Translations under genes and position numbers: made by a program
Notes under the pieces: generated by a model
What the model was told of the DNA's origin: nothing
The model's database searches: none
What the model saw: the letters and a program-made list of their open reading frames with translations, nothing else
Shown: positions 6,917 to 62,953 of the stretch, in pieces
Layout: each line of letters opens with the position of its first letter
Numbering within the stretch: position 1 is the stretch's first letter
Assembly: GCF_001748225.1 (NCBI RefSeq)
Contig: NZ_BDFE01000004.1
Span: 186,001 to 250,000 of the forward strand
From: Desulfoplanes formicivorans
GTDB taxonomy: Bacteria; Desulfobacterota; Desulfovibrionia; Desulfovibrionales; Desulfomicrobiaceae
Length of the DNA stretch: 64,000 bases
Direction of reading: 5' to 3'

Positions 6917-7837
6917 TCAGGCCAAAGCAGGCTCCATGGCAGCAGCCGGTTCCTTGCACGCGGCAGCAGCAGCGTCAGGTGAAGCCAAGGCCACCTCTTC
7001 CAGGTAATCGGCCCTGTGCTCCGAAATATAGCGCAAAAAGGCATTGTTGTGCTCATGCCCCGAACATCGGACATGAAATGCCCCCTGCATGGGGAGATCA
7101 AGAAGGTGCATGTCGCCGATGAAATCGAGAATCTTGTGCCGAACCAACTCGTCCTTGAACCGCAAGCCGTCCGGATTGACCACCCCATACTCATCCAGGA
7201 CAACAGCGTTTTCCAGGGAGCCTCCCAAGGCAAGACCGTTTTTCTGAAGCATCTCGACATCTTTCATGAACCCGAATGTTCTGGCCTTGGCCACTTCATG
7301 CATGAAGGTCTCGGGCGAAAGGGCAAGACAAAAGGTCTGCTCTCCCACAAGGGGATGATCAAACTGTATGGTATAGGTCACCTTGAACCCGTCATGGGGA
7401 ACAACCCGAATCGCCTTGCCGTCCCTTTCAAAGAGCAGTTCGCGCTTGACCCGGAAGACCCGTTTGGAACCGGCCTGTTTTCTGATACCCGCGGAACGGA
7501 GCAAAAAAACAAAACTGGCTGCGCTGCCATCCATGATTGGCACTTCGTCTCCGTAGACCTCGACAACAATATTATCGATGCCCAGCCCGGCAATGGCCGC
7601 CATGAGATGTTCCACCGTGGCGATTTTCCGCCCCCCAAAACCAAGGGTTGTGGCCAGCCCAGTGGACACCACGCTTTCAGGACGAGGACGCAGGGTATGT
7701 TTACCATCCGCCCCCATGTGCTGAAAGACAACACCCGTATCCTGCTCAGCCGGGCGCATGACCAGCCGCAATTTCTTGCCGCTGTGCAGTCCTATGCCGG
7801 AACACTCTACTTTTTTCTTGATTGTTCTTTGTCGCAT
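6917..7837 (-). CDS. lpxC: UDP-3-O-acyl-N-acetylglucosamine deacetylase
   Basis: LpxC carries out the committed, zinc-dependent deacetylation of lipid A synthesis, so the organism makes lipid A. The frame can extend to 7903, but the family start (MRQRTIKKKVECSGIGLHSGKK) begins at the ATG at 7837, giving 306 residues, close to the norm. Zinc and catalytic motifs are present: VEHLMAA (His), RHKILDFIGD (His and Asp) and GHEHNN (catalytic His). The C-terminus ends in an Ala-rich tail. No strong ribosome binding site is seen, so the start keeps some doubt. Single gene with its own terminator. Confidence 0.95.
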   Translation of the reverse strand: MRQRTIKKKVECSGIGLHSGKKLRLVMRPAEQDTGVVFQHMGADGKHTLRPRPESVVSTGLATTLGFGGRKIATVEHLMAAIAGLGIDNIVVEVYGDEVPIMDGSAASFVFLLRSAGIRKQAGSKRVFRVKRELLFERDGKAIRVVPHDGFKVTYTIQFDHPLVGEQTFCLALSPETFMHEVAKARTFGFMKDVEMLQKNGLALGGSLENAVVLDEYGVVNPDGLRFKDELVRHKILDFIGDMHLLDLPMQGAFHVRCSGHEHNNAFLRYISEHRADYLEEVALASPDAAAAACKEPAAAMEPALA

Positions 7838-54270: not shown

Positions 54271-54303
54271 AGGCAGTACTCAGTACGCAGTGCGCAGTAA
54301 AAA
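54271..54303 (+). repeat. C-type repeat run (CAGTAC/GCGCAG)
   Basis: Short iterated units of the GCAGTAC/CTCAGTACGCAGTGCGCAG kind followed by an A-run, at the left end of the repeat region. Related runs occur at 58432-58513, 58827-58860, 59045-59074, 60572-60608 and 60840-60873. Confidence 0.75.
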
Positions 54304-54331
54304 GACCCCGTGGGTTTTGGGTACTCTCTGC

Positions 54332-54406
54332 CTTTCTTCGCGCCCTTGGCGTCCTTCGCGGTAGAAAAAATAGATTAACCGCGAAGGGTACGAAGGAACG
54401 CGAAGG
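54332..54406. repeat. A-type hairpin repeat, copy 1
   Basis: Left arm CTTTCTTCGCGCCCTTGGCG and CCTTCGCGGT; right arm ACCGCGAAGG then CGAAGG..CGCGAAGG. The inner 10-bp stem CCTTCGCGGT/ACCGCGAAGG (54353-54362, 54378-54387) is perfect. Confidence 0.85.
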
Positions 54407-54570
54407 AAAAATACATGAGGTGGACCCATAATATTGGAACATATTCCTCTTTGTCCCTCAGTGCATTGAGCGGTAAAAAACCGCCCAGCTCACAAGGAAC
54501 GCCATGCCAGAATCCTTCACCGTTTCCAGGGCGCAGTAAAAAATTCTGTGCCTTCTTGAAAAGTTCTTGC

Positions 54571-54645
54571 CTTTCTTCGCGCCCTTCGCGTCCTTCGCGG
54601 TAGAAAAAAAAGATTAACCGCGAAGGGTACGAAGGAACGCGAAGG
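54571..54645. repeat. A-type hairpin repeat, copy 2
   Basis: Same hairpin as copy 1, inside the second 240-bp unit; arms CCTTCGCGGT and ACCGCGAAGG are conserved and the spacer is A-rich. Confidence 0.85.
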
Positions 54646-54810
54646 AAAAATACATGAGGTGGACCCATAACGTTGGAACATATTCCTCTTTGTCCCTCAG
54701 TGCATTGAGCGGTAAAAAACCACCCAGCTCACAAGGAACGCCATGCCAGAATCCTTCACCGTTTCCAGGGCGCAGTAAAAAATTCTGTGCTTTCCTGAAA
54801 GGGTCTTGCC

Positions 54811-54884
54811 TCTCTTCGCGCCCTTGGCGCTCTTCGCGGTAAAAGATAAAAAGGTAACCACGAAGGACGGCAAGGGACGCCAAG
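54811..54884. repeat. A-type hairpin repeat, copy 3
   Basis: Left arm TCTTCGCGCCC...TCTTCGCGGT; right arm AACCACGAAGGACGGCAAGG. It has diverged in the right arm (CCACGAAGG for CCGCGAAGG) and is followed by the linker that leads into B element copy 1. Confidence 0.8.
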
Positions 54885-55200
54885 AAAAATACATATACGG
54901 CCAAGCAGTAATTTTTTTCTTTCTTCGCAGCATCGTTAATTCATGGACCATTTTGATCCCAAAGTGGTACCAATTTGGGATCAAATTGGGACTGTTTTAT
55001 GGATCAAAATGGTCCCAAAATTTTTCTAAAATAAGTGGAGGTAACACTACAAGCAAAAAAGCGTTACCTCTACTATTTTGCAGTTCAAGTAACATACACA
55101 GTAGAAATTTTTTGAAATTTTTTAAAGTGAAGGTAACACATGATAAAGAGTATATTTTGTCAAGCGTTAGTTATGACAAAGGGATGAAATTTTTAAAGCA
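54884..55200 (+). repeat. B element, copy 1, with its linker
   Basis: Linker (AAATACATATACGGCCAAGC, ...) then: outer 15-bp inverted repeat GGACCATTTTGATCC (54945-54959) / GGATCAAAATGGTCC (55001-55015); an inner 32-bp palindrome with one mispair centred on GGTACC (54953-54984); a terminal hairpin GTGGAGGTAAC / GTTACCTCTAC (55035-55045, 55063-55073); then a further GAAGGTAACAC motif. Copy 2 at 55484 repeats the whole unit. No gene recognised. Confidence 0.85.
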
Positions 55201-55245
55201 TACAGTGCACCAAAAAAATTTGCGGCGTTTTTGAAAATTCTTTGC

Positions 55246-55296
55246 CTTTCTTCGCGCCCTTTGGTCCCTTCGCGGTGAAAAAAAGAAAGTGAACCG
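55246..55296. repeat. A-type hairpin repeat, copy 4 (truncated)
   Basis: The left arm (CTTTCTTCGCGCCCTTTGGT...CCTTCGCGGT) is present, but the right arm is reduced to GAACCGC and is followed by unrelated sequence that shares CCGCCCAGCTCAC with the 240-bp unit. Confidence 0.65.
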
Positions 55297-55411
55297 CCCA
55301 GCTCACCCAAAACGTCAAGAAGGACTTCTTGTCCACACCCAGCATCCAAAGCATTTTCAGTTCTCACGTTCATAGAGAAAGACATTCAGTGATTTTTTGA
55401 AAAGTTCTTGC

Positions 55412-55484
55412 CTTTCTTCGCGCCCTTCGAGCCCTTCGCGGTAAAAAGAAATGGAAACCACAAAGAACGCCAAGGGACGCCAAG
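55412..55484. repeat. A-type hairpin repeat, copy 5
   Basis: Left arm CTTTCTTCGCGCCCTTCGAG...CCTTCGCGGT; right arm degraded (ACCACAAAGAACGCCAAGGG). As with copy 3, it directly precedes the B element linker, so A and B form a composite unit. Confidence 0.8.
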
Positions 55485-55780
55485 AAAAATACATATACGG
55501 CCAAGCAGTAATTTTTCTTTCTTCGCAGCATCGTTAATTCATGGACCAATTTGGGATCAAATTGGGACTGTTTTATTGATCAAAATGGTCCCAAAATTTT
55601 TCCAAAATAAGTGGAGGTAACACTACAACCAAAAAAGCGTTACCTCTACTATTTTGTAGTTCAAGTAACATACACAGTAGAAATTTTTTGAAATTTTTTA
55701 AAGTAGAGGTAACACATGATAAAGAGTATATTTTGTCAAGTGTTAGTTATGACAAAGAAATGAAGTTTTTAAAGTACGTT
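55484..55780 (+). repeat. B element, copy 2, with its linker
   Basis: About 92-95 percent like copy 1 by eye over the linker, terminal hairpin (55611-55621 / 55639-55649) and 3' part. It lacks the 22 bases that form the left half of the GGTACC palindrome, a deletion bounded by ACCA direct repeats. The 3' part keeps the 15-codon frame seen in copy 1. Confidence 0.85.
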
Positions 55781-55828
55781 AGATGAATCAGAGCAAGACC
55801 TGGACCATAGCGTTCATAACGTTTTAGC

Positions 55829-55883
55829 AAACAAACCATGAAGGCCTGGCAGAAATATACATCTGCCAGGCCATTTGTTTTTC
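55829..55883. terminator. Terminator-like hairpin left of the XRE gene
   Basis: Perfect 11-bp stem GGCCTGGCAGA / TCTGCCAGGCC with an 8-base loop, flanked by ACAAA / TTTGT and a T-run on the plus side. It lies about 200 bases beyond the 3' end of the XRE gene and may end its transcript; the plus-strand T-run also suits termination of transcripts entering from the repeats. Confidence 0.75.
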
Positions 55884-56079
55884 ATAGAAAGGGACAATGC
55901 TTACGGATGGATCTAATATTGTAAACAAGTGGTACACAATGAAAGTTAACCAGCTAATATATATCTTTAAAAAAATTGAAGCATCCCAAATGGTATGTTC
56001 ATCGTATCAATAGCATTTGCCTTCCAAGAAACAGGAGAACCTGCAAGGCACTTCTGCCTAATTGAGGATGAATGCAACA

Positions 56080-56385
56080 TTAAGAATGATCAGATGAAAA
56101 GAGTTTGAGTTTGGATTCAATAGACTGGATGCGTTTTTCAATATTCTCAAAACGAATTGTAATGTCTTCATCAGCAACCAAAGGCTTTTCGTCGTCAAAA
56201 AGATCGTGGACAGATACATCAAGAGCGTGAGCTAATTTTTCAAGAGTGGCAAGAGTGCAACGCGAAATTTCGGAATCTTTGCGTGCTTTGAGGATAGTAA
56301 CATTATTAACTCCTGACCGTTGCTCCAAGGCTCTGATTGTCATGCCCTTCGCTTTCATAAGATGTTCAAGCTTGCTTTTCAGCAT
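56080..56385 (-). CDS. XRE-family (Cro/CI-type) transcriptional regulator
   Basis: 101 residues: N-terminal helix-turn-helix (KGMTIRALEQRSGVNNVTILKARKDSEISRCTLATLEKLAHALDVSVHDLF, residues 13-64) followed by an acidic coiled-coil tail (FENIEKRIQSIESKLKLF) likely for dimerisation. It is divergent from the four plus-strand genes of the island, with a dyad operator in the gap, the layout of a phage repressor. AT-rich compared with the chromosome. Confidence 0.88.
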   Translation of the reverse strand: MLKSKLEHLMKAKGMTIRALEQRSGVNNVTILKARKDSEISRCTLATLEKLAHALDVSVHDLFDDEKPLVADEDITIRFENIEKRIQSIESKLKLFSSDHS

Positions 56386-56425
56386 GGCGACTCCAAATTA
56401 ATTTAGCAAAATATCATATTATAGC

Positions 56426-56454
56426 TTGACAAATTTGTCTTAGTTTATTATGTT
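56426..56454 (+). promoter_or_regulatory. Island promoter with operator dyad
   Basis: TTGACA (56426-56431) and TATGTT (56449-56454) are 17 bases apart. The perfect palindrome GACAAATTTGTC (56428-56439) overlaps the -35, so binding by the divergent XRE protein would block the plus-strand operon. Confidence 0.65.
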
Positions 56455-56498
56455 CTTTTTGTTGCTACGGAAAAGGAACATTCTTCAAGGAGGAAAAA

Positions 56499-56717
56499 AT
56501 GAGAAAAGCTTTGTCAAAGTTGGATGCGGGCTTGGAAGAGGTAAAAGCAGCACTTGTCAATATTGCCTTCAGACTCGATCGACTGCCTGCCGACATAGAA
56601 ATGCCAGAGCTTTGCAAAGAACTTGACCGCACGATCATGGACATCTCAGATGCTTGCGCTCTGCTCGATGCCCAACGTGTCATCTTTTACCACCAGGCAA
56701 ACGCTAGCAGAGGGTGA
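56499..56717 (+). CDS. Small protein of unknown function, first gene of the island operon
   Basis: 72 residues (MRKALSKLDAGLEEVKAALV onward), helical, acidic, no known motif. AAGGAGG is placed ideally (6 bases) before the ATG and the operator-controlled promoter is 45 bases upstream, which favours a real gene. It ends 4 bases before the ERF gene start. Confidence 0.65.
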   Translation: MRKALSKLDAGLEEVKAALVNIAFRLDRLPADIEMPELCKELDRTIMDISDACALLDAQRVIFYHQANASRG

Positions 56718-56721
56718 GTCT

Positions 56722-57435
56722 ATGAAAAACAAGACAAAACAAACTATAAAAAGACATCCTTGTCAAAGTCAACAAATCGGGAATTTGGCCATGGCACTTT
56801 CCTGTGCCCAAAGCGCAATGGGGTTTGCTAAAAAAGATTCCGTCAATACGACATATTCGTCACGCTATTCTACCCTGGCGTCTTGCCTTGATGCCTGTCG
56901 AAAATCTCTCACAGATAATTGTCTTGCAATAGTACAAACCGTCCAGACTGACAACGATGGAAGAGTTCATCTTTTTACCCGGCTCATTCATGGCCGAAGC
57001 GGAGAATGGATTGAAAGCGACTATCCCATTGAGTGTTCGATGAAAAATCCTCAAACTTTCGGCTCTGCGCTAACGTATGCACGACGTTATTCTTTGTGCG
57101 CAATGATAGGTATAGCGTCAGAAGACGATGACGGAGAACAAGCAACCCATTACAATGATACAGTTGAAAAGAAAGGAGGTGAATGCACAACGCGCAAAAA
57201 CGAAATAAAAAACGGCAAATGCAATGAAAAAGGAGAAGATATTGCAACAAAAAAGCAAATTGAAACCATTGAACAAATGGCTCGGGAACGAAATTTGGAT
57301 GTACTTGAAGTTATGAAAAAAATTTTTGATCCGAGTATAAACAAAATTGAACGCTTATCAAAAATACAAGCGTCAAAGCTGATCAGTTGGATGTCCCAGT
57401 ACCAAGGCAAGGATTCCCTGGAAAAGGCAGTTTAA
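56722..57435 (+). CDS. ERF-family single-strand annealing recombinase
   Basis: 237 residues. The ERF core is clear: IGNLAMALSCAQSAMGFAKKDSVNTTYSSRYSTLASCLDACRKSLTDN, IHGRSGEWIESDYPI, and PQTFGSALTYARRYSLCAMIGIASEDDDGEQA (the GSAxTYxRRYxL and DDDG signature). ERF proteins anneal homologous single strands in phage recombination (P22 Erf-like). The C-terminal third (ATKKQIETIEQMARERNLDVLEVMKKIF ... ISWMSQY) is a helical region common behind ERF cores. The ATG at 56722 with AGAGGGTGAG upstream is preferred over the longer frame from 56623. Confidence 0.9.
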   Translation: MKNKTKQTIKRHPCQSQQIGNLAMALSCAQSAMGFAKKDSVNTTYSSRYSTLASCLDACRKSLTDNCLAIVQTVQTDNDGRVHLFTRLIHGRSGEWIESDYPIECSMKNPQTFGSALTYARRYSLCAMIGIASEDDDGEQATHYNDTVEKKGGECTTRKNEIKNGKCNEKGEDIATKKQIETIEQMARERNLDVLEVMKKIFDPSINKIERLSKIQASKLISWMSQYQGKDSLEKAV

Positions 57436-57466
57436 TTTGTTCACATTAACAGAAGAGGTTAAAGTA

Positions 57467-57868
57467 ATGCAAGATATCAATAGATATAGTACACGTCGAA
57501 CTTTTGAATATCAGAACAATGAAGATTTGAACGAATTCAAACGAAAGATGCAGCAGGAGACAAAAAATATATCTCAAAAATCCAAGATCACGATCGACTT
57601 GATGGACTTGAATCAACTGTTGGAAAAAATCAACAAGAACAATATAGTATACAGGATTGTCATGACTCCCAACCACGCAAGGAAGCACGCTTGGGGTTGT
57701 ATGGATCTGATGGACCACATGAAATCGATCGAAGAAAAATACATGGCTTGCCGTTTCTTCCATCTTGTAGAAACGGGCGCTCAACAGTGGCCGCAACTTA
57801 AACTATTCGCCAAGGCTTTTTTTAACAAATCGGAATCTACCAAAACACTAACAACTACAAAAAATTGA
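57467..57868 (+). CDS. Protein of unknown function in the ERF island
   Basis: 133 residues starting MQDINRYSTRRTFEYQNNED; AGAGG lies 8 bases before ATG 57467. Helical N-terminal half (LNEFKRKMQQETKNISQKSK), then VYRIVMTPNHARKHAWGCMDLMDHMKSIEEKYMACRFFHLVET. No family recognised. It starts 31 bases after the ERF gene on the same strand and is as AT-rich as the rest of the island. Confidence 0.7.
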   Translation: MQDINRYSTRRTFEYQNNEDLNEFKRKMQQETKNISQKSKITIDLMDLNQLLEKINKNNIVYRIVMTPNHARKHAWGCMDLMDHMKSIEEKYMACRFFHLVETGAQQWPQLKLFAKAFFNKSESTKTLTTTKN

Positions 57869-57919
57869 TAATTCAATGCATCAAGAGCTTATAAAACCTC
57901 AAACCACATCAGGAACGTT

Positions 57920-58249
57920 ATGAAAAAGAAAAGACCTCGAATTGCCCCTGAAGTAAGGTATGATGCCGTTATGGACCTTATCCGCAACAAGGACACCCTG
58001 AAAAATGTCGCAAGACGGAACAATATGTCTACATCAAGCCTTTGGAATTACTACACTGATGTAGATGCGGCCATCAAAAAAGTAGTTGGACTGGATGATT
58101 GCGATTCTTCATGTAAAACAAGTCGAAACATGAAGTCTACAAACAATATCGAGAGGAATAAAGTAAAATTAAATACAGCTACTACAATACAACAAAAGGC
58201 ACCAAACGAGATCATTATCCGTATTAATATTTGCCAATCTGATCAGTAA
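57920..58249 (+). CDS. Helix-turn-helix protein, last gene of the ERF island
   Basis: 109 residues. The N-terminus, KKRPRIAPEVRYDAVMDLIRNKDTLKNVARRNNMSTSSLWNYYTDVDAAIKKV, has a helix-turn-helix of the transposase/resolvase-like type (ask for KNVARRNNMSTSSLWNY as recognition part). The C-terminal 50 residues are basic and low in complexity. There is no catalytic transposase domain. It could bind the B elements nearby, but that is a guess. Followed at 58365 by a terminator hairpin inside B copy 4. Confidence 0.7.
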   Translation: MKKKRPRIAPEVRYDAVMDLIRNKDTLKNVARRNNMSTSSLWNYYTDVDAAIKKVVGLDDCDSSCKTSRNMKSTNNIERNKVKLNTATTIQQKAPNEIIIRINICQSDQ

Positions 58250-58277
58250 ATATATCAGATTGACCAAAACACGATCA

Positions 58278-58415
58278 TTTTGAATTAAAATCATTTTGAT
58301 CCAAAGTAGATATAAAAATTTGATTGTTTTTATGGATCAAAATGAAATCAAATTGGCTGAAAATGATAGAAGTAACACCATTTCATGAAACATGTTACTT
58401 CTATCATTTTTTTGT
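58278..58415 (+). repeat. B element, copy 4 (diverged), with terminator hairpin
   Basis: Keeps ATTTTGATCC...TATGGATCAAAATG and the terminal hairpin, here GATAGAAGTAAC / GTTACTTCTATC (58365-58376, 58394-58405), perfect over 12 bp and followed by seven T. Sequence of stem and loop differs from copies 1-3 while pairing is kept. It ends the ERF operon about 115 bases after the last stop. Confidence 0.8.
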
Positions 58416-58431
58416 TGATATATACTAAAGT

Positions 58432-58513
58432 AGGCAGGAACTCAAGTACACAGAACTCAGTGCGCAGGACACTAAAAAGTGCACAGTGCGCAGTAGGCAG
58501 GGCGCAGTAAAAA
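58432..58513 (+). repeat. C-type repeat run
   Basis: Iterated GCAG/GTAC-rich units (TACACAGAACTCAGTGCGCAGG..., GTGCACAGTGCGCAGTAGGCAG) leading into GCGCAGTAAAAAATTCTGTG, the same lead-in that precedes A copies 2 and 3. Confidence 0.7.
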
Positions 58514-58541
58514 ATTCTGTGCGTTCTTGAAAAGTTCTTGC

Positions 58542-58615
58542 CTTTCTTCGCGCCCTTCGCGCCCTTCGCGGTAAAAAAAGGATCGAACCACGAAGGGCGG
58601 CAAGGAACGCCAAGG
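58542..58615. repeat. A-type hairpin repeat, copy 6
   Basis: CTTTCTTCGCGCCCTTCGCG...CCTTCGCGGT, then ACCACGAAGGGCGGCAAGGA. It precedes B copy 3 with a diverged linker, as copies 3 and 5 precede B copies 1 and 2. Confidence 0.85.
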
Positions 58616-58667
58616 GAAATACACGTACTTCCAAAAAGTTGTTTTTGCCCCTCTTAGCAATGGTGAT

Positions 58668-58812
58668 TCATGGATTATTTTGATCCCAAATTGGTACCAA
58701 ATTGGGATCAATTTGGGACTTTTTTATGGACAAAAATGGTCCCAAAATTTTTCCAAAACAAGTGGAGGTAACACTACAGGTAAAAAAACGTTACCTCTAC
58801 TATTTTGCAGTT
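58668..58812 (+). repeat. B element, copy 3, with perfect 30-bp palindrome
   Basis: Half-site TGATCCCAAATTGGT is followed by its exact complement (58681-58710), centred on GGTACC. The iterated ATTGGGATCAATTTGGGAC and the terminal hairpin GTGGAGGTAAC / GTTACCTCTAC (58762-58772, 58790-58800) match copies 1 and 2; the outer inverted repeat is degraded. Confidence 0.85.
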
Positions 58813-58826
58813 CAAGTAACAACTAA

Positions 58827-59074
58827 AGGGCGCAGTACTCAGTGCGCAGGGCGCAGAAAAAAAACCTCATGGGCTTTGGGAAGTCTCTGCCTTTCTTCGC
58901 GCCCTTCGCGCTCTTTGCGGTAAAAAAAGAAATGTAACCACGAAGGACGAAAAGGAACGCTAAGGAAACCACTCCAACCGCCTGTCTTCATGGGCAATTT
59001 ATCCCATGCTTCCTACCAAAAATATCCTCCCAACATCCTTGTTTTTCACTGTGCCCTGCGTACTGCGCACTGTC
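58827..59074. repeat. Composite repeat: C run - A hairpin copy 7 - inverted C run
   Basis: GCGCAGTACTCAGTGCGCAG at the left end and CTGCGTACTGCGCACTG at the right end (59045-59074) are inverted with respect to each other and enclose an A hairpin (58891-58965, arms CTTTGCGG / ACCACGAAGG). The same architecture occurs at 60572-60873, so it looks like one unit of about 250-300 bases with inverted ends. Confidence 0.75.
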
Positions 59075-59100
59075 TACAACCAGTGCATGCACTGGTTGTA
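59075..59100. repeat. Perfect 26-bp palindrome upstream of the nucleotide-sugar dehydrogenase gene
   Basis: Half-site TACAACCAGTGCA followed at once by TGCACTGGTTGTA. It lies at the junction of the C run and the promoter-like module and could be an operator, a hairpin or an insertion scar. Confidence 0.8.
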
Positions 59101-59118
59101 TGACAATTCCAAAATCCC

Positions 59119-59174
59119 TTGACAGTTTTTTCTTCCAGGACTAGCCGTTCAGATTCTGAACCATCCATGTTTTC
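59119..59174 (+). promoter_or_regulatory. Upstream module 1 (shared with 60879-60934)
   Basis: Starts with TTGACA and contains CTAGCCGTTCAGAT; aligns without gaps to the module at 60879, about 85 percent identical over 53 bases. A -35 is plausible but the base at the -10 distance (TAGCCG) is a poor match. Confidence 0.45.
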
Positions 59175-59229
59175 CATGCATCCTGCACACTTCAGATGCT
59201 CTGATAACCTGAACCCCCCATCATCAATC

Positions 59230-60543
59230 ATGATCACCTATTCAGATCTGAAAAACAAAAAAACATCCCTTGCCATTGTTGGCCTGGGCTATGTGGGCCT
59301 GCCCCTGGCCGTTGCCTTTGCCGAACATTTGGATGTCATCGGTTTTGACATCAATGCAGACCGTATTGCCCAGCTCAAGGCTGGTGTCGATCATACGTTG
59401 GAAGTGGACAATGTCCGCTTGCAAAAGGTTTCCATGGAGTTCACCTCGGACCCTGAAGCCCTGAAGCGTGCCAAAATCATCATTGTTGCCGTGCCCACGC
59501 CCATTGATAAAAATCGCCGGCCTGATCTTTCCCCGGTTGTGGGAGCCTCCACCCTGGTGGGCAAACATCTTTCCAAAGATTGCGTTGTGATCTACGAATC
59601 CACGGTCTATCCCGGGGTAACTGAAGAGGTATGCGGCCCCATCCTGGAAAAGGAATCCGGCCTGGTCTGCGGCAAAGATTTTTTTCTGGGCTACTCGCCC
59701 GAACGCATCAACCCCGGTGACAAGGTGCACACCCTGCAGACCATCACCAAGGTGGTTGCCAGCCAGAATTCCGGGATCACCGAGCTGCTGGACCAGCTCT
59801 ACTCCTCCGTGGTCCGGGCAGGTACTCACAGAGCATCCTCCATCAAGGTGGCTGAGGCGGCCAAGGTTATCGAGAACACCCAGCGGGACCTGAACATCGC
59901 CCTTATGAACGAACTTTCCCAAATTTTTGCCTTGATGAGCATTGATACCCTGGAGGTCCTGGAAGCCGCAGGCACCAAGTGGAATTTTCTCCCCTTCCGG
60001 CCCGGTCTAGTGGGCGGACACTGCATAGGCGTGGACCCCTATTACCTGACCTTCAAGGCCGAAGAACTGGGCTAGCATCCCCAGGTCATCCTCTCGGGAA
60101 GGCGGATCAACGATTCCATGGGCTCATACGTGGCCCGGACCATGATCAAAAAGATGATCCGCAGAAGCTGTGCCATCAAGGGGTCCAGAATCGGGATGCT
60201 GGGCCTGACCTTCAAGGAGAACTGCCCGGATCTGCGTAATACCCGGGTCACGGATATCATTGCCGAATTGGAAGAATTCGGGTGCGAGGTTCTGGTACAC
60301 GATGCCTATGCCGACAAAAAAGAAGCCAGAAAATATTACGGCATTGATCTGAACTCACTGGAGGAACTCAAAGAATTGGACGGCCTCATCATTGCCGTGG
60401 CCCATGATGCGTACAAGCATATGGACATGGACCAGCTTGCAGGCATGTTCAAGAACCCGGACAAAATAATCATCGGCGATATCAAGGGAATGCTCGACCG
60501 GGAAGAGGCTGATGAGCACAACATGTGCACTTGGCGACTGTAA
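59230..60543 (+). pseudogene. wbpA: UDP-N-acetylglucosamine 6-dehydrogenase (WbpA/TviB type), interrupted by an in-frame TAG
   Basis: One frame of 437 codons has TAG at 60073-60075, in place of the Tyr of the family sequence AEELGYHP, so only FKAEELG and HPQVILSGRRINDSMG are joined by it. Before it (281 residues): NAD site [44 protein letters not shown], catalytic [11 protein letters not shown]. After it: MLGLTFKENCPDLRNTRV. TAC or TAT to TAG needs one base change. Other genes here (pyrH, rpsB, rpmG) use TAG as a normal stop, so read-through is unlikely. Pathway role: UDP-GlcNAc to UDP-GlcNAcA. The first ATG with the family N-terminus is 59230; no clear ribosome binding site. If the base is a sequencing error it is an intact gene. 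Confidence 0.85.
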
Positions 60544-60571
60544 TCAGCCAGCCAGCGAGCAGACAGGGGAA

Positions 60572-60873
60572 AAAGTACGCAGGGCATAAAGTACTCAGGA
60601 CGCAGAGAAGAGAATTCATGTGGTTCTTGGGAAGTCTTTGTCCCTCTTCGCGCCCTTGGCGCCCTTCGCGGTAAAAAAAGAAATGGAACCACGAAGGGCA
60701 CGAAGGAACGCGAAGGGAAATACCTGTACTTCCAGGTAGTTACTTTTTGCCCCTCTTCACGGTTTTTCTATTTTCACGATAAGAACGCAAAGGAATGGCT
60801 GCCCCAAAAAACACGCTCAACACCCGAACCGTGAAGGTTTTTTCTGCGCCCTGCGTACTGTGTACTGCGCACT
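60572..60873. repeat. Composite repeat: C run - A hairpin copy 8 - inverted C run
   Basis: AAGTACGCAGGGCATAAAGT at the left, CTGCGTACTGTGTACTGCGC (inverted) at the right (60840-60873), A hairpin at 60643-60717 with arms CCTTCGCGGT / ACCACGAAGG. Second example of the structure at 58827-59074. The gap 60544-60999 otherwise holds no gene. Confidence 0.75.
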
Positions 60874-62052: not shown

Positions 62053-62123
62053 AGGCATTTGCCCACGGAACACACGGAAAGACACGGAAAAAGGCTTTTT
62101 TTAATTCCGCGTGTTCCGTGGAC
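62053..62123. repeat. D-type hairpin repeat, copy 1
   Basis: CCACGGAACACACGGAA / TTCCGCGTGTTCCGTGG with one mispair, separated by an A/T-rich loop, directly after the wbpB stop and before the first GxxExxY gene. Confidence 0.85.
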
Positions 62124-62132
62124 CCCCAAAAT

Positions 62133-62504
62133 ATGCTTACTCTTGAACAGGAAACGTATAACATCCTTGGAGCCTGTTTTCAGGTGTACACCACCATGGG
62201 GTGCGGATTTCTGGAGGCTGTGTATCAGGAGTGTCTTGAGATCGAGTTCCGAAAACGAGCTATTCCGTTTATTTCTCAACCTGCCTTGGAATTGAGATAT
62301 GATGGAGTTCTCCTGCAACAGAAGTACATACCCGATTTTGTTGTTTATGACGAAGTCATTGTAGAGATAAAGGCGGTGTCAGAACTTGCAAGCGAACATA
62401 AAGCCCAGTTGCTGAATTATCTCCATGCGACAAATCTGGAAGTAGGTTTGCTCGTCAATTTCGGGCACTATCCCAAGGTAGAGTATAAGCGGATGATCCT
62501 TTAA
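62133..62504 (+). CDS. GxxExxY-family protein, copy 1 (PD-(D/E)XK-like)
   Basis: 123 residues from ATG 62133 (GTG 62118 is also possible). The family motif is GFLEAVY (GxxExxY), and PDFVVYDEVIVEIKAV has the Asp...Glu-x-Lys layout of a PD-(D/E)XK nuclease core. The function of the family is not established; members often occur in repeats and multiple copies. No Shine-Dalgarno site is seen. It sits between wbpB and wbpD, unrelated to sugar synthesis, and is almost identical to the next gene. Confidence 0.85.
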   Translation: MLTLEQETYNILGACFQVYTTMGCGFLEAVYQECLEIEFRKRAIPFISQPALELRYDGVLLQQKYIPDFVVYDEVIVEIKAVSELASEHKAQLLNYLHATNLEVGLLVNFGHYPKVEYKRMIL

Positions 62505-62511
62505 AGAATTT

Positions 62512-62574
62512 TGCCAACGTAACACCCGGAAAAAGGCTTTTTTTATTCCGCGTGTTCCGTGTGTTCCGTGGGCC
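62512..62574. repeat. D-type repeat, copy 2
   Basis: CCAACGTAACACCCGGAAAA left arm (diverged) and TTCCGCGTGTTCCGTGTGTTCCGTGGG-type right arm, between the two GxxExxY genes. Confidence 0.8.
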
Positions 62575-62581
62575 CCAAAAT

Positions 62582-62953
62582 ATGCTTACTCTTGAAAAAG
62601 AAACATATAACATCCTTGGAGCCTGTTTTCAGGTGTACACGACCATGGGATGTGGATTTCTGGAGGCTGTGTATCAGGAGTGCCTTGAAATTGAGTTTCG
62701 AAAGCGGGATATTCCGTTTATTTCTCAACCTGTCTTGGAGTTGAAATATGATGGTCTGCTCCTGCAACAGAAGTACATACCCGATTTTGTTGTTTATGAC
62801 GAAGTCATTGTAGAGATAAAGGCGGTGTCGGAACTTGCAAGCGAACATAAAGCCCAGTTGCTGAATTATCTCCATGCGACAAATCTGGAAGTAGGTTTGC
62901 TCGTCAATTTCGGGCACTATCCCAAGGTAGAGTATAAGCGGATGATCCTTTAA
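62582..62953 (+). CDS. GxxExxY-family protein, copy 2 (PD-(D/E)XK-like)
   Basis: 123 residues, differing from copy 1 at only a handful of positions (for example KRDIPF for KRAIPF and VLELKYDGL for ALELRYDGV). At the DNA level the last roughly 200 bases plus the following spacer are practically identical, which points to a recent tandem duplication or conversion of a 449-base unit. Same motifs as copy 1 and the same distance from its D repeat. Confidence 0.85.
   Translation: MLTLEKETYNILGACFQVYTTMGCGFLEAVYQECLEIEFRKRDIPFISQPVLELKYDGLLLQQKYIPDFVVYDEVIVEIKAVSELASEHKAQLLNYLHATNLEVGLLVNFGHYPKVEYKRMIL

Follow-up and report, generated by a model that had tools for sequence, protein, structure and literature searches.

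Five uninterrupted, AT-rich genes in an intergenic gap of the Desulfoplanes formicivorans genome are best read as a temperate phage's early region that has been left stranded and shares an intergenic hot spot with a separate family of palindromic repeats, here called B; we put the probability of this reading at roughly 0.6. The genes occupy positions 56080-58249 of the window, the 64,000-nucleotide stretch analysed here (positions 186001-250000 of contig C4), in a genome of 3,000,979 bases in 26 contigs. D. formicivorans Pf12B is a sulfate reducer of the Desulfovibrionales with a GC content of 49.8%, and its published assembly was made with Velvet from short reads (PMC5460402), so that B copies 1 and 2 and the junctions are provisional. 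The gap lies between a phosphoesterase gene and the housekeeping gene ppiD on one side and a polysaccharide locus on the other. The left flank has a GC content of about 55%, but between 55 and 59 kb the value is 36-42%, which bears out the AT-rich island described in the first-pass annotation; four of the module genes have 38-41% and the gene for the 72-aa protein 49%. As that annotation had also stated, translations of the open reading frames at 50-64 kb include no recognizable integrase, replication or structural phage gene, the neighbours being the phosphoesterase, ppiD and a sugar-nucleotide dehydrogenase. The phosphoesterase-bearing contig of the sister species begins just 118 bases upstream of that gene, so that the corresponding site falls outside the assembly.

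Table 1. Features of the module and its flanks (window positions; fold z-scores give hairpin stability relative to shuffles).
Feature	Position	Strand	Remarks
A repeats, three copies, GC-rich imperfect hairpins	54296-54888	+	direct-repeat families D1, D3, D5
B copy 1, full length	54938-55198	+	covariance model 182 bits; DNA fold z = -8.15
A repeats separating B copies 1 and 2	55210-55488	+	
B copy 2	55537-55774	+	95% identical to copy 1; fold z = -3.8
Terminator-like GC-rich hairpin, then ATTTGTTTTT	55843-55872		
XRE (Cro/C1-type) repressor-like gene, 101 aa	56080-56385	-	HTH_26 PF13443 9.8e-12
Putative promoter of rightward operon with operator-like GACAAATTTGTC	56426-56454	+	TTGACA-17-TATGTT
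Small protein, 72 aa, no family assigned	56499-56717	+	same place as small gene before ERF in viral contig L011
ERF-family single-strand annealing protein, 237 aa	56722-57435	+	PF04404 9.1e-22
Orphan protein, 133 aa	57467-57868	+	without convincing relatives
HTH protein, 109 aa, N-terminal transposase-type HTH	57920-58249	+	HTH_Tnp_ISL3 E=0.00095
B copy 4 (B5 in alignments), diverged	58263-58440	+	covariance model 112 bits; z = -6.4
A repeat separating B copies 4 and 3	58506-58619	+	
B copy 3	58660-58822	+	covariance model 156 bits; fold z = -3.8; alignments
A repeat to right of B copy 3	58855-58968	+	

The gene order reported at first pass, a leftward XRE-type regulator followed by a rightward small protein, ERF, a second protein without assignment and an HTH protein, is present and intact, and each gene has a plausible Shine-Dalgarno sequence. 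The XRE protein also matches PHROGs of phage transcriptional regulators, with a weak match to phage_RstR below cut-off. A search for defence systems gave only weak HTH matches for this protein, and a defence system was rejected. Profile searches, Pfam and PHROGs among them, returned no family for the 72-aa protein. The ERF protein, encoded by a single-copy gene, matches phrog_2324 (1.2e-36) and the solved Gp77 (7.3e-18), and its family matched 1320 phage records; its relatives within the order are about 40% identical, and the best viral relative is 50% identical over 128 residues. The 133-aa protein has no convincing relative among 297 genomes of the order, phages, plasmids and viral contigs; a match of the P4 orphan to Akkermansiaceae proteins (45% over 33 residues) was peptide-seeded, looks like a selection artefact and was discarded. 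The HTH_Tnp_ISL3 match of the 109-aa protein lies below the curated Pfam cut-off, and this protein too lacks convincing relatives in the collections searched, which included the same 297 genomes. Single-sequence structure predictions of the two orphans are of low confidence (mean pLDDT 53.9 and 48.4).

A 39-kb viral contig (L011) carries a leftward XRE gene, a 68-aa gene, a rightward ERF gene and a RecE-like exonuclease, with a terminase large subunit further on, and its first three genes stand in the identical order to those of the window, a recurrence that upholds the earlier description of the module as lysogeny-like. A second contig (L009), source of the 50% identical ERF relative, places ERF near a terminase small subunit, a DnaD-like loader and a primase-helicase. 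The comparison with phages comprises one clear syntenic case together with partial contigs. The module combines a divergent Cro/C1-type repressor facing an early operon, a phage-type annealing protein within that operon and a gene order found in a recognizable phage. By contrast, the open reading frames around same-family ERF relatives form a different conserved gene set, without adjoining XRE or HTH genes. Two of the five genes are orphans, which leaves two or three genes, and their order, to carry the phage origin that we infer for the whole set. Against this reading, the RecE-like exonuclease that is the usual phage partner of ERF is absent here, and all five genes have kept open frames and good ribosome-binding sites, as a long-stranded fragment need not. 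The alternative offered at first pass, a prophage fragment that has decayed within a repeat hot spot, fits best as to origin and setting but not as to decay. Elsewhere, L069:10136-13003 (contig C9) has the look of a Mu-like prophage left end, its translations giving a repressor, a small HTH protein and a MuA-like protein.

On the preferred reading, the five genes would have been acquired horizontally as an early region in which a C1-like repressor faces the rightward operon (small protein, ERF, orphan and HTH protein) across a promoter overlapping a palindromic operator. Such a lysogeny switch would repress a homologous-recombination gene, and the module, having no adjoining phage replication, integration or virion genes, would by itself be stranded. 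The operator dyad noted earlier is indeed a perfect 12-bp palindrome, GACAAATTTGTC, at 56428-56439, the sole copy in the window, and overlaps the -35 TTGACA at 56426. Because a perfect palindrome of at least 12 bp arises in 5% of mononucleotide shuffles of the 113-bp gap, its role as an operator is plausible, though not strong on that statistic alone.

The B elements lie on both sides of the module, as first described, with copies 1 and 2 to the left and copies 4 and 3 to the right, interspersed among eight A repeats, and one covariance model confirms all four as homologues. A second model, with the C20 copy included, yields exactly six strong matches genome-wide, its weaker matches being the opposite strand of these six sites and the next independent candidate having E=1.1; the fifth copy is on contig C15 and the sixth, detected only by covariance model, on C20. 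The closest pair, copies 1 and 2, is 95% identical, whereas copy 4 or the C20 copy matches the rest at about 55-58%. Rfam gave no match above the gathering score, only sub-threshold miRNA matches. Judged from their sequences, the B elements are truly homologous, and they make up a low-copy family of intergenic palindromes, each about 160-250 bp long, that was encountered in this genome alone. Searches of about 100 relatives and, under stricter filters, of 395 genomes of the phylum found no B. Nor was B found by blastn in phages and plasmids, by exact pattern in viral contigs, by the covariance model on fetched ERF loci of phages and relatives, or in the 11.3 kb of L011 that were read.

Copy 1 consists of two hairpins, GTAACA iterons, an AT tract and a TTTTGTCAAG...TTATGACAAA tail. 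Copy 2 lacks 22 nt of the left palindrome, a deletion that took GGTACC with it, copy 4 begins 13 nt past the last module gene and has a T run after hairpin 2, and copy 3 is cut off on its right side by GTGCGCAGTAC-type repeats; the GGTACC-centred palindromes of the first-pass annotation are thus confined to copies 1 and 3 and missing from 2 and 4. GTAACA cores, in the form searched, number ten in the island, all within B, with one elsewhere in the window. Hairpin 2 (GTAACA...TGTTAC) is paired in 97% of cells, and changes on both sides affect three of its 12 pairs (five cells), a figure reached by one of 500 shuffles. Pairing would appear to be kept through compensatory changes, and this covariation is supportive, not conclusive, because there are six sequences and the structure was read from those same sequences. 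From the covariation of its hairpins and the conservation of its GTAACA cores, B may have a role in protein binding or single-strand processing.

Is B then part of the module? Four of six copies lie within 3.9 kb, which occurred in none of 200,000 random placements, or in 13 of 200,000 when copies 1 and 2 count as a single event, and this clustering far beyond chance, with copy 4 so close behind the last gene, speaks against two separate entities. The locus is, however, a repeat hot spot generally. The A repeats number 10 genome-wide, eight of them at 54296-60719, and both these and the GTGCGCAGTAC-type repeats, clustered here, are found again at loci that have no ERF gene. Neither the C15 nor the C20 copy has XRE, ERF or HTH genes nearby, and tblastn finds no trace of the module there. 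Copies 1 and 2 share their linker and 95% of B, diverge inside A, and resemble the products of a duplication, one edge of which falls in an A repeat. For these reasons we favour, with moderate confidence, that B is independent of the module; the B elements would be host-restricted palindromic repeats, multiplied locally by recombination between repeats, in part, for copies 1 and 2, through that duplication. At 59119-60543 a UDP-sugar dehydrogenase-like gene is broken by one in-frame TAG (60073-60075) in a frame that is otherwise open, reflecting either a nonsense mutation or an assembly error. At 62118-62953 a small gene of GxxExxY type occurs in two tandem copies, 93% identical, with CCGTGTGTTCCGTG-type repeats before each.

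Mobilization of B in trans as a miniature transposable element, by an IS200/IS605-type Y1 transposase on C15 or by another, with the module adjacent by chance, is doubtful. Copies 1, 3 and C15 begin directly after TTCAT, copies 1, 2 and C15 have the right end TTATGACAAA in common, and five copies carry GTGG/GTAG on their hairpin arms; moreover the genome's sole detected Y1 transposase, a REP-associated tyrosine transposase (L018:8918-9913) whose 3' fragment is duplicated at 7363-7527, lies 1.6 kb from the C15 copy. That gene, however, is not flanked by B but surrounded by several copies of a different repeat, AACCTGTCCC; the C15 copy is single, and no inverted B pair was seen at the gene. REPs usually exceed 100 copies and RAYT genes always lie between two inverted REPs (PMC2817692), as against six B copies genome-wide. 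B shows no terminal inverted repeats and the C20 copy does not follow TTCAT, and RAYT was rejected as the mobilizer of B on present evidence.

The first-pass annotation had proposed a satellite-like or self-duplicating element using its own flanks. An integrase-less element of this kind, with B as its replication or recombination sites, ERF-driven annealing there as its means of spread, and solo remnants of past insertions on C15 and C20, would account for the clustered copies, the iterated GTAACA sites, AT-rich tract and compensated hairpins, and for the B tail half-site TTGACAAA that is also present in the operator. Yet the two solo sites carry no module genes, B is missing from the other genomes searched and from the ERF loci read, and there is no replicase. 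B copies differ by up to 45%, so that, the duplication of copies 1 and 2 apart, nothing points to a recent shared expansion. Both observations that the annotation had named as damaging to its proposal, the same genes in prophages without B and B elements unrelated to ERF/HTH genes, were encountered in part, as the XRE/ERF order of phage without B and as B copies away from ERF/HTH genes. Overall this explanation is unlikely. Of the first-pass annotation, the observation stands with small corrections and the interpretation is partly supported: its lysogeny-like description holds, whereas self-spreading is not supported.

It is improbable, too, that B comprises regulatory or terminator-type structures retained for an RNA function downstream of genes. 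Terminator-like sites in the region number 12 against 3.5 expected, several of them inside B; copy 4 closes the operon, the C20 copy lies at the ends of convergent genes, and hairpin 2 has the near-complete pairing and two-sided changes described above. But no gene immediately precedes copies 1, 2 or C15, the C20 copy has no T run after hairpin 2, and paired changes are expected of palindromic DNA sites as well. The sixth copy directly adjoins an AT-rich gene pair (L067:7744-9505, C20) encoding a NERD-like nuclease with a topoisomerase-type zinc finger and a 275-aa membrane protein. Least probable is that a minimal element of repressor, ERF and HTH genes uses B in cis as origin or operator, spreads integrase-free through annealing at its flanks and leaves solo-B scars.

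Under the preferred reading, what seems to be one self-contained mobile element can turn out to be two things, a phage control region left stranded and an unconnected family of intergenic repeats. The proximity of ERF to diverged repeats offers a natural setting for studying relaxed homologous recombination. Phage satellites of the SaPI/PICI type have a repressor-controlled small operon, as does the module, which differs in having no integrase, primase/replication or packaging-interference gene; none of the five island genes matches integrase, site-specific mobility or replication functions, and no second site was seen, ERF being single copy and the orphans not convincingly present in the 297 genomes. 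XerCD-dependent integrative elements (IMEX, dif modules) likewise lack their own integrase, and the B tail has an 11-6-11 look; its core, TCAAG-N6-TTATG, however, does not have the CATAA/TTATG pair of inner arms, the 28-bp dif consensus (CATAA-N6-TTATG core) has no match in the window at up to three mismatches, and the inverted repeat is lost in C20, so that a dif/XerCD site was rejected. With REP/BIME sequences and their RAYT (PMC2817692) B shares an intergenic position, palindromes, multiple copies, GT(A/G)G-like arm starts and compensatory changes, but it has just six copies, is 160-250 bp long and carries the head sequence inside the stem. In temperate phages, an early region encoding an Erf-type Rad52-like recombinase, of which Erf of phage D3 is an example (PMC3945230), has in addition adjoining exonuclease, replication, integration and virion genes, where the module has two orphans after ERF; the two have in common, as in L011, the order of divergent C1-like repressor, small gene and phage-type ERF.
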